Assembly (NCBI RefSeq): GCF_000504305.1
Contig: NZ_KI632512.1
Location: 3,536,404 to 3,600,403 of the forward strand
Reading direction: 5' to 3'
Length of the DNA stretch: 64,000 bases
Origin: Nitratidesulfovibrio termitidis HI1
GTDB lineage: Bacteria > Desulfobacterota > Desulfovibrionia > Desulfovibrionales > Desulfovibrionaceae
Shown here: in pieces, positions 5,240 to 50,229 of the stretch
How positions within the stretch are numbered: the first letter of the stretch is position 1
Layout of the letters: each line of letters opens with the position of its first letter
Program-made: the position numbers and the translations under genes
Notes under the pieces: generated by a model
The model's input: the letters and a program-made list of their open reading frames with translations, nothing else
The model's database searches: none
Told to the model about the DNA's origin: nothing

Positions 5240-6081
5240 GATAGTGTCGTCATTTGAATTTACAATGAAGCGCTCGCGTGATATTCTCTTTGACAACAGG
5301 GGGATACATGCAGGCAGCACATCGACGGCACGACATATCAGACCGGGTTTGGGAACTTTTGAAGCCTCACCTGCCGGGACGTGAAGGAGTCCGAGGCGCT
5401 ACAGCACGCGACAATCGCCTGTTTATCAACGCCGTATTTTGGATTCTACGCACAGGTGCACCTTGGAGGGACCTCCCGCCGGACTATGGAGATTGGAAAA
5501 ACACTCATCGTAGGTTTTGCCGCTGGCGAGACAAGGGGCAATGGGAGATGTTGCTTGAAACCCTTGTAAATGAGCCTGACTTTGAATGGTTGATGATAGA
5601 TGCAAGCCACATCAAAGTGCATCCTCATGCGGCAGGTGCACGCGGTGGGAATCAGGACATGGCCCGCACAAAAGGGGGCTTAACTCCAAGATACACCTGG
5701 CCGTGGATGCGCATGGTATGCCGATCCGAATGTTTATTACAGCAGGTACCGTTGCTGATTGCGCACAAGCTCAGAGGCTTGTCGAAGGCATAGATGCCGA
5801 AAACTTGCTGGCTGACAAAGGATACGACAGCGGCATATTTGCGGAGAGCCTTGAGGCTAATGGAGTCACTCCGGTTATTCCGCCCAGAAAAGGGCGCAAG
5901 GCTCCGCGCGACTACGACAAACACCTATATCGCCTCAGACATCCGGTAGAAAACGCATTCTTGGAATTGAAGCGATGGAGAGGTGTTGCGACCCGTTACG
6001 CGAAAAATACGTCCTCATTTTTGGCCGCTGTTCATATCAGATGTATCGCAATTTGGACAAAAATCATTTGACGACACTATC
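5240..6081 (+). mobile_element. IS5-family (IS427-like) insertion sequence, apparently complete
   Basis: Inverted repeats TAGATAGTGTCGTCA at 5238-5252 and its reverse complement at 6069-6083 bound a two-frame DDE transposase. The outermost TA on each side is probably the duplicated target, giving an element of about 842 bp. Both ends, the start codon and the three catalytic acidic residues are intact, so it could be active. It sits inside the AT-rich tRNA-Glu insert, directly after the hydrolase gene. Confidence 0.85.
5308..6071 (+). CDS. IS5-family transposase made by -1 frameshifting
   Basis: The first frame starts at ATG 5308 (SD AGGGGG just upstream) and runs MQAAHRRHDISDRVWELL through the DUF4096-like domain to the first catalytic Asp in MIDASHIKVH. 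Near 5668-5677 the run AAAAGGGGGC is a slippery site. Shifting back one base enters the second frame (LNSKIHLAVDAHGMP), which carries the second Asp (LADKGYDS) and the Glu (HPVENAFLELKRWRG). The final stop lies inside the right inverted repeat. The arrangement is standard for this IS group, so the split is more likely programmed frameshifting than a mutation. Cutting chemistry is DDE-type in the cytoplasm. Confidence 0.85.
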
Positions 6082-13737: not shown

Positions 13738-13848
13738 CCGTTTTCGGCGGAATTCCATTCCATGCGGCATACCCCTTCGTGCCTTTCCTCCTTCTGATTT
13801 GTTCAAATAATCACATTGATTCTACATTGTTGCCGGAACGCTTCGGGC

Positions 13849-13863
13849 TGGCATCGTACCTGC
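13849..13863 (+). promoter_or_regulatory. sigma54-type -24/-12 promoter before the PstS-like gene
   Basis: TGGCATCGTACCTGC has GG and GC separated by ten bases and matches TGGCAcgNNNNtTGC at the key positions. It is about 100 bp upstream of the ATG at 13965 and follows a gene for a sigma54 activator. Confidence 0.5.
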
Positions 13864-13964
13864 TTTGGGTGTTGCGACCACAGACGGGCGGATGGGCTGC
13901 ATCGTCCCGCCGTGGCGCGCGTGGCATGGGGTCGCGCGTGGCAACGAACGAAGAAGGAGTGCGT

Positions 13965-14825
13965 ATGCAACAGGCTGGTGCAATCAAGACCGCCGCGCGG
14001 CGGGGGCTGTCCGGCGTGCTGAAGCTGGCCGCGGCATGGGCCGTGGCGCTGGGCGTGGCTGTTTCTCCCGCCACCCCTGCGTGGGCAGCGGGAGACTCGG
14101 TGCCGCTGACCTACGAAGGGGCCAGCACCGTCGGCGGGGTAATCCTGCCGGAGGCCACAAAGCTGTTCACGGCAAAGTCGGGCGTGCAGTTCGGCGCCAT
14201 CGGCACCGCCGGTGCGGGCGCGGGCTTCAAGGCGGTGGTGGCGGGCAAGGTGTCGTTCGGCGGCCTGGCCAGCGAACCCACCGCGCAGGAAAAGGCCCAG
14301 CTCACCGACATCGTGGTCATCGGCTACGACGTCATGGGCGTGTTCGTGCACGGCGCGAACCCCATCAAGGGCCTGAGCATGACCCAGCTCAAGGACATCT
14401 TTTCCGGCAAGGCCACCAACTGGAAGGACGTGGGCGGGGCCGACGCCCCGATCACCGTGTACAGCGAAAAGCTGGACGGGGGCCGGGCCACGGTGAAGGC
14501 CTTCAAGTCCATGGTGCTGGGCGACACCCCCTACGGCCCGGTGAAGGAACTGGACGACGCCACCGACTGCGTGGCCGACGTGGTGAAGGACGCCGGGGGC
14601 ATTACCGCCGCATCCATGTCCTTTGCCCTGCCCGGCGCGGTGGCCGTGCCCGTGAACGGCGCCAGGCCCGATGCGGCTGGCGTGCGCTCCGGGGCCTACC
14701 CGCTGAAGCGTCCCCTTTCGCTCATCGCCGTCAATCCGTCCGCCGACGTCAAGGCGTTCTTCGAATTCATGCTCACGCCCCCGGCGCAGGCCGTGGTGGC
14801 GAAGTCGTTCGTTCCCGCGAAGTAG
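13965..14825 (+). CDS. PstS-like periplasmic substrate-binding protein
   Basis: 286 residues. ATG 13965 with AAGGAG SD. Signal peptide in residues 1-39 (LKLAAAWAVALGVAVSPATPAWA). The mature part follows the phosphate-binding family: YEGASTVGGVILPEATKLF, a glycine-rich phosphate-loop-like IGTAGAGAGF, then the PBP-like motif PIKGLSMTQLKDIFSGKATNWKD. It is probably a phosphate or other oxyanion binder in the periplasm. No ABC permease or ATPase genes follow, so it is either an orphan feeding a distant transporter or a sensor partner of the adjacent two-component system. Its stop codon abuts a palindromic repeat element. Confidence 0.8.
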   Translation: MQQAGAIKTAARRGLSGVLKLAAAWAVALGVAVSPATPAWAAGDSVPLTYEGASTVGGVILPEATKLFTAKSGVQFGAIGTAGAGAGFKAVVAGKVSFGGLASEPTAQEKAQLTDIVVIGYDVMGVFVHGANPIKGLSMTQLKDIFSGKATNWKDVGGADAPITVYSEKLDGGRATVKAFKSMVLGDTPYGPVKELDDATDCVADVVKDAGGITAASMSFALPGAVAVPVNGARPDAAGVRSGAYPLKRPLSLIAVNPSADVKAFFEFMLTPPAQAVVAKSFVPAK

Positions 14826-15005
14826 GGGCAAATCGTTTTTTTGCTCGTTGGCGTCGTCAAACTTCGCCTGCCATAGCTCTGCTGTCCTTATCCGTAAGGT
14901 TCGCTTCACTCACCTAACGGCTAAGGCTCGGTTGAATACGATAAGAGTATGCGCCCTCATGGCAGGCTTGTTTTCCTCGCCAACAAACAAAAATCCTGAT
15001 TTGGC
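14826..15005. repeat. MITE-like palindromic element, copy 1 (about 180 bp)
   Basis: The left arm (TTGGCGTCGTCAAACTTCGC) and the right arm are imperfect inverted repeats, and the core contains ATCCGTAAGGTTCGCTTCAC-type sequence shared with copies at 35542 and 49910. It begins directly after the stop codon of the PstS-like gene. Non-coding. Confidence 0.75.
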
Positions 15006-15067
15006 CTCACTCGCATGATCGACGACACATCCCCGTGCAACCGACAACACAAGGAAGGCGTTTTCCG

Positions 15068-34809: not shown

Positions 34810-35127
34810 GGCCGGGGCTTTTGCGCATTGCGGCCCGGCGTGAACCGGCCAGGCCCAGTGCGCCCAGTGCGCCCGGTGCGCCCGGTGTGTCCGGTGTCCA
34901 GTGTGTCCGGACTGGCCCGGCAAGGCCCGCGCGGAGCGGCGTGGCAGCCTGTCCCGCCACGGTGCCACGGTGCCACGGTGCGCCGCGCCCCTGCCGTTCG
35001 TCCCGCCCACGTACACGTTGACAGCGCCGCCGGGGGTGTTAGCTATCCCTGTGCGGCCCCGGCGCGTCGGCCAAGCCGCGTGCCGTGCTCCGCGCCGTCC
35101 GCAATCCGCCCACCAGAAGAGGTGCGC
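34810..35127. other. intergenic region, 318 bp, repeat-rich
   Basis: Contains the 9-bp array at 34852-34896 and three 8-bp CACGGTGC units near 34957-34980. No gene is seen; an SD (AGAAGAGG) near its end serves the Hsp20 gene. Confidence 0.5.
34852..34896 (+). repeat. 9-bp tandem array, 5 units, intergenic
   Basis: GGCCCAGTG, CGCCCAGTG, CGCCCGGTG (twice), TGTCCGGTG. Confidence 0.7.
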
Positions 35128-35541
35128 ATGGTTATCGACTTCAGCGCGTTCTACGAATTTCCCAACCTGCTCGACCGCCTGGCGGGCGATGCGGGGCGCA
35201 ATCTGGCGGCCACGCGTGGCCGGGCGCAGTTTCCGCCGCTGAACATCGGCGAGGACGACGCGGCCATCCGCGTGCGCGCGCTGGTGCCCGGCGCGGACCT
35301 GGACGGGCTGGACATCACCCTCACCGACAAGACACTGGTGCTCAAGGGCGAACTGCCCGTGGTGCGTGGCCGGTACTACCGGCAGGAGCGGCCCACCGGC
35401 CCCTTTCAGCGGGTGGTGACCCTGAACGTGCCCATCGACCGCGACCGGGCCACGGCCACCATGAAGGACGGCGTGCTGGAGATCGTGCTGCCCAAGGCAC
35501 AGGCCGTGAAGCCGCGCACTGTTCACATCGAAGTCAGGTAG
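35128..35541 (+). CDS. Hsp20-family small heat-shock protein
   Basis: 137 residues; ATG 35128 with AGAAGAGG SD. The alpha-crystallin domain is visible from PPLNIGEDDAAIRVRALVPGADL to the C terminus, including the typical LVLKGEL strand, ERPTGPFQRVVTLNVPID and the MKDGVLEIVLPKAQ strand that patches oligomers. A C-terminal V-x-I-type anchor (TVHIEVR) is present. It holds unfolding proteins for refolding chaperones. A second Hsp20 gene follows at 35749, separated by a palindromic repeat element. No CIRCE or sigma32-type site was identified. Confidence 0.92.
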   Translation: MVIDFSAFYEFPNLLDRLAGDAGRNLAATRGRAQFPPLNIGEDDAAIRVRALVPGADLDGLDITLTDKTLVLKGELPVVRGRYYRQERPTGPFQRVVTLNVPIDRDRATATMKDGVLEIVLPKAQAVKPRTVHIEVR

Positions 35542-35737
35542 GGGCTGCTTCGAAATTGTCCTTTCGTCTGTTGGCTTTGTCAAACTTCGCCTGTCATTAC
35601 GGTTGAATACGTTAAGAGCGCGATGCGGTCGCCAGCCGTAATGCTCGAAAACTCGCATAACGGCTGCCGCATGCTCCCTCATGCCAGGCTCGTTTTCCTT
35701 GCCAGCAAACGAAAATCCTAATTTGGAAACACCCCCT
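35542..35737. repeat. MITE-like palindromic element, copy 2 (about 195 bp)
   Basis: Starts directly after the Hsp20 stop. The left arm contains CTTTGTCAAACTTCGCCTGTC; the right arm GCAAACGAAAATCCTAATTTGG is its imperfect complement; the core shares GAATACGTTAAGAGCGC with copy 3. It ends just before the SD of the next hsp20 gene. Confidence 0.75.
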
Positions 35738-35748
35738 AGGAGGCTGCC

Positions 35749-48325: not shown

Positions 48326-49909
48326 ATGATGCAAGGGTTGCGCATCCGGACACTTATCTTCCTGCTCGCACTCGTTCCCCTGATCTGTCTGGGCGGTTTC
48401 GCCTGGCTCGGTTCCGTCGGAACCGGCTCCATCACCCCCGGCGCCATCTGGCTGGCCGGGGGCATCACCGTGGGGTGCGCGGTGATGCTGGCCGTTGCCC
48501 TGGCCGTGTTGCTGCACGCCAAGGTGGTCAAACCGCTGGGCGAGATCACCTGGCGGCTCGACCGCCTGAAGACCGGTGATCATTCCGTCTGTTTCGCCTG
48601 CGACGGCGGCGATGAACTGGTGGAGATGCGCATCGCCCTTGATGGGCTTATCGGCCAGTTGCGCAGAAACCTTTCATTTGCCCAGGGCGTGCTGAAGGGT
48701 ATCGATACCCCCTTCGTGGTGGTGGACCCCAAGGAGGTGCTTACCTACACCAACTCCAACCTGCTGCATATCCTGGAACACGACGGCCAGCCGGAAAGCT
48801 TCTACGGCCAGAACGTGGCCCAGTTCTTCTACGGCGACGCCACCCGCCGCACCGTGCTGCGCGACTGTATCGAAAACGGCGCCATCGCCCGGCGCGAGGT
48901 GGATCTGACCGGGCGCAAGGGCGGCAAGCGGCGCATCTTCATCAATGCCTCGCCCCTGTACGACATAGAGGGCAAGCTGATGGGCGCGCTGTGCATCTAT
49001 CAGGACCTTACAGACCTGCGCGCCCGCGAGGCCGAACTGGAAGCCACCAACAAGCGCATTGCCGATGCTGCCCATGAGTCGGAAGGAATATCCGGCGAGG
49101 TGGCCCGCACCTCGGCCACCCTGGCCGGGCAGATGCGCAACGCGGGCAGCCTGACCGACAGGCAGGCCAACCGCATAGGCGAGACGGCAGCCGCCATGGA
49201 CGAAATGAACAGCGCGGTGCTGGCGGTGGCGCGCAACGCCTCCGACGCCGCCCGTCAGGCCACCGATGCCCGCGCCAAGGCGGAAGCCGGGGCGGGCGTG
49301 GTGGAAAAGGCCATGGCCGCCATCGACGAAGTGAGCACCATGGCCGCCCGGCTGAAGGCCGACCTTGGCACGCTGGGCACCCGGGCCGAAGGCATCGGCA
49401 GGGTCATGGAGGTCATCAGCGACATTGCCGACCAGACCAACCTGCTGGCCCTGAACGCTGCCATCGAGGCGGCGCGTGCCGGTGACGCCGGGCGCGGCTT
49501 TGCCGTGGTGGCCGACGAGGTGCGCAAGCTGGCGGAAAAGACCATGAACGCCACCCGCGAGGTGGGAGAGGCCATCCGGGCCATTCAGGAAGGCACCCGC
49601 GATTCGGTGGCCGGCATGGAGGCGGCGGTGCACGCCGTGGAACGCTCGCGTGGGCTGTCCGCCGAGTCGGGCGCGGCCCTGGCGGAAATCGTCACCCTTG
49701 TCGTGGCCACCAACGATCAGGTGCACGCCATCGCCACGGCGGCGGAGCAGCAATCGTCCACCAGCGAACACATCAGCAGTTCCGTGGCCGAGGTGCGCGA
49801 CATTTCGGGCAAGGTCACCTCCGAGGTGGAGCAGGCCGGTCGGGCGGTAAGCGCGCTGGCCGACATGGCCGGGCAGTTGCGGGGGATCATTCACAACATG
49901 ACCGCGTAG
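48326..49909 (+). CDS. methyl-accepting chemotaxis protein with PAS sensor
   Basis: 527 residues; ATG 48326 with TAAGGAG SD. Two transmembrane helices at residues about 6-25 and 32-58 with almost no periplasmic loop, then a HAMP-like stretch ([22 protein letters not shown]). A cytoplasmic PAS domain ([25 protein letters not shown] through [11 protein letters not shown]) follows. The signalling hairpin is fully conserved ([37 protein letters not shown]). It probably senses an intracellular redox or energy cue rather than external ligands. No CheB/CheR-binding pentapeptide at the C terminus. A palindromic repeat element starts right after its stop. Confidence 0.9.
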
Positions 49910-50155
49910 GGCTGTCCCCAAATGGACCTTTCGCCCGTTGGCGTCGTCAAACTTCGCCCGCCATGCGCTGCTGTCCTCATCCGTAGGGTTCGCTTCGCTC
50001 ACCTGACGGCTGAGGCTCCGGTCGAATACGATAAGAGCGCGCTGCGGTCCTCATCCGTACGGCTCGCAAGCTCGCCTAACGGCTGAGGCATACTCCCGTC
50101 ATGGCGGGCTTGTTTTCCTTGCCAACGAACGAAAATCCTCATTGGGGAACAGCCC
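49910..50155. repeat. MITE-like palindromic element, copy 3 (about 246 bp)
   Basis: The longest copy. The arms GGCTGTCCCCAAATGGACC (left) and the complement of ATTGGGGAACAGCCC (right) are inverted repeats; the core contains two copies of a CCTCATCCGTA..CTCGC..ACGGCTGAGG unit. Directly follows the chemoreceptor stop. Confidence 0.8.
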
Positions 50156-50189
50156 TTGAAGCGTCGCAGGTCAACGCTTCGATTCGAGA

Positions 50190-50229
50190 TGAAAAGGCCG
50201 CCCGTCGGAATGCTCCGGCGGGCGGCCTT
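50190..50229 (-). terminator. terminator of the GAK cassette (minus strand)
   Basis: AAGGCCGCCCG (50194-50204) pairs with CGGGCGGCCTT (50219-50229); on the minus strand it is followed by TTTTC. It lies 30 bp beyond the last gene of the cassette. Confidence 0.8.

Follow-up and report, generated by a model that had tools for sequence, protein, structure and literature searches.

The Yersinia element YPAL, a mobile palindrome, was reportedly found by De Gregorio in 2006 to insert preferentially closely downstream of stop codons. YPAL (or RU-2) is described as an intergenic mobile element of ∼168 bp with inverted repeats, documented by empty and filled sites and by target duplications, and it is said to be expressed with the upstream gene, perhaps affecting the stability of its RNA (PMC2229807). 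GTAG REPs, treated together with CGTC REPs in PMC3733652, are palindromes of 20–40 bp mobilised by RAYT transposases; they lie mostly downstream of genes, and their termini often provide the TAG stop. For E. coli REPs that lie ≤15 nt from a stop, and so place a hairpin right after it, translational control has been proposed, and 446 of 4072 predicted REPs lie at that distance (PMC12306157). Further literature considered comprises PMC10969869 and PMC2267715.

Here we describe a palindromic element from Nitratidesulfovibrio termitidis HI1 that represents a new family among palindromic MITE/REP-like elements, its nearest known kinds being Yersinia YPAL and the GTAG-tagged REPs. In literature on Desulfovibrio repeats and stop-codon palindromes, a coverage that takes in few subscription papers, no description of this element was found. 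Like YPAL, it is a mobile palindrome next to stop codons. On the published description of YPAL (PMC2229807), the termini of that element lack TA, its inverted repeats are internal and its duplications measure 3–26 bp, whereas the family described here has ends TAG...CTA, a TA or TAG duplication, the stop codon itself as insertion point and a nearly fixed polarity. The ERIC, Correia and RUP MITEs resemble it in that their transcripts form stable hairpins, their termini carry TA and their target is duplicated; the part of PMC2229807 considered mentions no stop-codon anchoring for them. It resembles GTAG REPs in its position and terminal TAG but is mostly ≥148 bp long with inverted terminal repeats. 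About 90% of copies lie at a stop, compared with the E. coli REP fraction given above. Roughly nine copies in ten have the native stop as their insertion point, and polarity hardly varies; both features are stronger than in the precedents compared.

Three copies in a 64-kb window

The window, meaning the whole 64,000-nucleotide stretch that was analysed, had been predicted from its letters to hold a MITE-like repeat family of three copies, each starting within one base of a stop codon. All three copies proved real, arms and core are common to them, and a TAG stop forms the first three bases of each. The features are as follows.

14823–15008, + strand: copy 1, whose first three bases are the TAG stop of the upstream gene; one hairpin side branch
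14823–14825, + strand: TAG stop of the solute-binding protein gene (open frame 13779–14825)
35539–35739, + strand: copy 2, between two co-directional HSP20 genes
35539–35541, + strand: TAG stop of the HSP20 gene (gene about 35122–35541)
49907–50156, + strand: copy 3, beginning at the TAG stop of the chemotaxis receptor gene; two hairpin side branches
49907–49909, + strand: TAG stop of the chemotaxis receptor gene (open frame 48326–49909)
49926–49956, + strand: left core arm of copy 3, ACCTTTCGCCCGTTGGCGTCGTCAAACTTCG; equivalents at ∼14836–14866 (copy 1) and ∼35559–35589 (copy 2)
50106–50139, + strand: right core arm of copy 3, GGGCTTGTTTTCCTTGCCAACGAACGAAAATCCT; equivalents at ∼14965–14997 (copy 1) and ∼35686–35719 (copy 2)
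50194–50229, + strand: terminator-like hairpin 3′ of copy 3, from a motif scan of this copy only

The genes upstream of copies 1, 2 and 3 match the Pfam families of solute-binding proteins, HSP20 and chemotaxis receptors, respectively. The TAG of copy 2 at 35539–35541 is repeated at 35737–35739 as a target duplication, and the outer stem of copy 1 is shortened (GGGGCAAATC/GATTTGGCCTC). When up to three mismatches were allowed, the core GAATACGATAAGAGC matched the window three times, with 0, 1 and 1 mismatches, as compared with 0.38 matches expected, and none of 100 shuffles reached three. Copies 1 and 3 match the arm TTGGCGTCGTCAAACTTCGC exactly, and copy 2 matches TTGGCTTTGTCAAACTTCGC exactly; the count for a shorter arm motif with three mismatches was not significant (3 found, 3.95 expected), though all three were exact. 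A model built from copies outside the window (R1) recovered all three sites on the + strand with E values of 6e-24 or better, its weaker − strand match (E 1e-5) being copy 3 read in reverse. In folding comparisons with 200 shuffles each, every copy beat all of its shuffles (z −5.6, −4.4 and −6.5 for copies 1, 2 and 3).

In the general layout, the TAG stop of the upstream gene is followed by a left arm (..AAATTGTCCTTTCGCCCGTTGGC..CGTCAAACTTCGCC..), a core (GAATACGATAAGAG) and a complementary right arm (..GTTTTCCTTGCCAACGAACGAAAATCCTAATTT..). The ends common to copies are TAGGGGCTGTTTC and GAAACAGCCCCTA. The short length and terminal inverted repeats of a MITE are both present. Copies are mostly about 148 to 330 bp long. 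Their lengths fall into classes of about 148, 200, 250 and 320 bp, depending on which hairpin side branches, each with a fixed position, a copy carries; a few of the longest values lie at the edge of the search range and may be misread. Most copies retain two adjacent C.A mismatches in the core stem, which are G.U on the opposite strand; this retention is a hint that the feature is recognised.

Copy number, empty sites and stop codons

A pattern for the right arm, with up to three mismatches, occurred at 80 places in the 4.26-Mb genome of the strain, while the reversed control gave none; in seven other Nitratidesulfovibrio genomes it occurred 43, 51, 42, 41, 87, 81 and 65 times. A covariance model built from 31 short copies gave at least 104 matches in the strain's own genome at E values up to 0.01, with 150 of 1484 candidates scored. 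A second model, built mostly from old copies and with 52 candidates scored per genome, found matches in at least 22 of 59 Desulfovibrionaceae genomes and at least 17 of 44 genera, the own genus counted in. Genomes of these sulfate-reducing bacteria hold from dozens to more than 100 copies. Instead of three copies only, or copies at random positions, either of which would have spoken against the original prediction, the genome carries 80 copies, mostly at stops.

Insertion was documented by comparison with relatives. The site of copy 2, which in the strain's own genome reads CAGGTAG[element]TAGGAGG, was empty in five of the six relatives examined (G002, G003, G004, G006 and G007), reading CAGGTAGGAGG or a variant of it, and G005 carried a shorter copy of the element at the same stop. 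Further clean empty sites were found for the own-genome loci 2253595 (three of three relatives) and 3660541 (two of three). The clean empty sites show a duplication of TA or TAG, which are indistinguishable because the element starts with G; target duplication and empty sites, as known for MITEs, thus both occur. The MITE-like character that had been proposed is therefore borne out by terminal inverted repeats, high copy number, presence or absence between species, and TA/TAG duplication at clean empty sites. Copy 1 was represented by a shorter or much reduced version in the three relatives compared (G004, G006 and G007). Six relatives had a version of copy 3, some with another left arm, and G004 retained only a left-arm-like remnant.

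The stop codons at which elements lie are native. The comparison covered 93 orthologous loci in three relatives, a locus being counted as filled if the model matched anywhere within its 801 bp and two loci with an arm-like remnant being counted apart. Among the 43 loci that lacked the element by model, some of which keep short remnants by eye (e.g. 511126 and 1449844), 40 stop at the same codon and the other three one codon later. The upstream protein is therefore unchanged by insertion, and the idea that the element supplies a new, gene-truncating stop was rejected.

The association of the left end with stops was strong throughout, genes being called with a home-made codon-usage score trained on the window. 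Of the 81 copies in the strain's genome, 72 place the left end ≤10 nt from the stop of an upstream same-strand gene and two place the right end at a convergent stop (P = 3e-19 for polarity if the copies are independent). The genus was represented by 207 distinct copies with both arms and enough flank, a set that replaces an earlier list and includes orthologs common to several species, so that its members are not independent. Here the left end lay within 10 nt of an upstream same-strand stop in 183 (162 TAG, 15 TAA and 6 TGA), 103 of them at an offset of exactly 0 and 37 one base off, as compared with five copies with the right end at a convergent stop. A second group among the 183, of 22 copies, lies at +6 to +8 from the stop and has a shorter outer stem. 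Without the 15 copies from loci that had been fetched by a TAG-starting pattern, the figures were 169 of 192 for the left end and four for the right. Divergent copies missed by the pattern and found by the model, which carries a weak signal for the first bases of the element and none for reading frame, were at a stop in 32 of 35 full-length matches, three partial matches being omitted. In other genera, 16 of 28 model matches had an open frame of ≥80 codons ending ≤12 nt from the left end, a count made with no control.

A difficulty for targeted insertion is that this preference exceeds the one predicted by TA, TAG or CTAG as target. Under rough gene calls, stops made up 29 of 408 non-coding TA, 24 of 137 strand-aware TAG and three of eight CTAG sites in the window; these shares are too low, since the 46 calls (73% of bases coding) miss genes, but complete calls are not expected to raise them to about 90%. 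In addition, the base before TAG in 66 well-preserved copies was about as often G as C (C29 G26 T8 A3), an argument against a CTAG target.

We consider it probable (roughly 0.68) that the family consists of non-autonomous palindromic mobile elements of the Desulfovibrionaceae, with modular side branches, that insert at the TA(G) of native stops with near-fixed polarity. This reading draws on the copy number, species presence and absence, TA/TAG duplication, native stops, polarity and self-complementary arms that were observed. On this reading the family is an insertion system found in nature whose elements leave genes intact, because they land on stop codons, in a nearly fixed direction; it is spread over many genomes of one bacterial family, and if the targeting is real its enzyme would be a safe-site integrator. 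The element family also accounts for a class of 3′ ends that could otherwise be mistaken for terminators.

Alternatively, insertion may be untargeted, with selection leaving mainly those copies at 3′ ends whose orientation benefits the gene through an mRNA-stabilising or translation-tuning hairpin. We regard this as unlikely, although E. coli REPs ≤15 nt from the stop are reported to stall ribosomes (PMC12306157). Under selection, intergenic sites a few bases further should be tolerated too, and the bias is already present in the best-preserved copies: among those with ≤5 mismatches in their ends, 46 of 53 have the left end at a stop and three the right end (37 of 43 and two when TAG-pattern loci are left out). 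The stop-codon link that had been suggested is supported by the own-genome and genus counts. As to its cause, given originally as either targeting or shaping by transcript 3′ ends, targeting fits better, because the best-preserved copies are already biased and the stop codon is the same in relatives lacking the copy. If the bias were nevertheless due to selection, the copies would amount to many natural experiments on the effect of a hairpin directly after a stop.

Arm pairing and reoccupied gene ends

The outer arms vary strongly among loci, yet they are mostly self-complementary within a given copy. At least one double change was present in 30 of the 39 pairs of one alignment, in which 12 one-sided cells kept the pair, and among 204 distinct copies the pairing of outer pairs was above that of shuffled columns; both tests ignore relatedness. 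Measured against the consensus in the 207 copies, changed pairs were two-sided in 272 cases (221 of them paired) and one-sided in 268, so that in paralogs one-sided stem changes are about as frequent as two-sided ones.

Selection on a hairpin in the sense mRNA was not supported as the cause of this pairing. Mismatched pairs showed no preference for G.T over A.C (47 v 79, 79 v 159 and 22 v 30), part of the A.C excess being expected from column composition (157 v 193, 109 v 174 and 83 v 89 in shuffles). In RNA folding, the strand opposite the mRNA was the more stable in 203 of 207 copies, by a mean of ∼15 kcal/mol. Because G.U is not favoured and the opposite strand folds better, symmetry at the DNA level, or the other strand, is apparently what is maintained, and not a hairpin in the mRNA. 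This argues further against selection for a beneficial transcript hairpin. A contrary case is the old locus L372, at which all three left-arm differences in G003 retain G.U pairing (by eye), as selection on the transcript would have it.

Gradual compensation in place was not supported either. In 28 close comparisons (33 were made, and five with similarity ≤0.7 were left out), there was one double Watson–Crick change as compared with 87 single outer-stem changes, many of which are due to indel shifts or positioned beyond the stem. The arms of the 22 old loci described below likewise give it no support; L372 is again a case to the contrary.

Persistence of old copies speaks for selection. At 24 of 29 loci, G003 has a model match downstream of the same stop, and 20 of these begin right at the stop. 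When 22 old loci were compared with G003, eight had near-identical arms, 11 had quite different arms at the same stop and one was intermediate; in the remaining two the model match starts elsewhere, and these were unscored. At the 11 loci with different arms, pairing was above the 95% point of the between-locus null in nine of the own copies and seven of the G003 copies, so pairing is often retained even where the arms of two species differ, as selection would also predict. Different arms at one stop are most simply read as the outcome of replacement, or of insertions that recur at favoured gene ends, and recombination between copies may be a source of them. Such elements are not predicted by simple insertion plus decay, and they count against targeted insertion at stops in its plain form.

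Integration machinery that senses functional stops via ongoing transcription or translation termination, and not via a DNA motif, seems to us quite improbable. If true, it would account for a polarity that hardly varies, for placement that is almost exact and for gene ends that are occupied repeatedly, in sister species, by elements whose arms are unrelated.

Mobilising enzyme, mechanism and related loci

No transposase with terminal repeats matching those of the element was found in the eight genomes searched for PF01609 and PF01797. DDE_Tnp_1 (PF01609) gave one hit in each of four of the eight genomes, none with the ends of the repeat. The prediction that the window holds no transposase for the repeats needs one correction. 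An IS5-family element with a transposase gene at about 5240–6081, split in two overlapping frames, is present and is the sole DDE_Tnp_1 match in the strain's own genome; its ends (GATAGTGTCGTCATTTG) are unlike those of the repeats, and it was rejected as partner. IS4/IS5 and RAYT partners were rejected as well, the PF01609 hits lacking matching ends and Y1 having no match in the own genome.

Under targeted insertion, a transposase acting in trans would recognise the stop-codon target together with the paired ends. TAG would be restored by the G with which the element starts, so that the upstream protein would be unchanged and insertion would be tolerated, even in a junction as short as the 9 bases between the HSP20 genes (copy 2). 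The upstream mRNA would then bear a long hairpin right after the stop, which, by analogy with YPAL and ERIC of Yersinia and REP of E. coli, may alter mRNA decay or translation termination.

A single-strand (HuH Y1) element of the REP/RAYT kind, in which TAG is the 5′ hairpin tag that fixes polarity, would match the strand-specific tag at the gene-side foot and the asymmetric folding of the two strands, and GTAG REPs often supply a TAG stop (PMC3733652). We nevertheless hold it to be very unlikely. The Y1 transposase (PF01797), and with it a RAYT gene, did not match anywhere in the own genome, and in two of the eight genomes its matches were partial or interrupted. Nor was a 20–40 bp unit with a GTAG tag seen in the family: most copies are about 148 bp or longer, with terminal inverted repeats and a target duplication, and the base before TAG is not fixed to G (see counts above).

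That the hairpins are 3′-end signals (terminators or processing sites) of their own genes, and not mobile DNA, is hardly credible in spite of their strength and their position directly after the stop, as it is largely refuted by the clean empty sites with TA/TAG duplication, and there are many similar unlinked copies and a separate terminator-like hairpin downstream of copy 3. The terminator scan, which covered copy 3 only, gave that site, with a 16-pair stem, and a weak 5-pair site inside the copy; in view of the former, copy 3 lies between the stop codon and a likely terminator.

At gathering scores, Rfam matched only a tRNA across the window and gave no family for the element. When six loci were searched to an E value of 1, a single match exceeded its cut-off; it was to a cobalamin riboswitch and lay on the opposite strand of L424. 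Of three matches below cut-off, one (L428:2237–2340) lies on the secondary model matches of that locus. The riboswitch match, L424:1401–1721 on the minus strand in another genus, spans the element at 1501–1650, so that the palindrome is placed as if inside a riboswitch loop. Six loci of other genera (L422, L423, L424, L444, L445 and L448) share a terminal repeat that differs from the one above and is close to TAGGGCCTGTTCACACTATGG; their inner architecture is the same. At L406, L410 and L428, two or three element-like model matches lie close by at one locus, some of them in opposite orientation.
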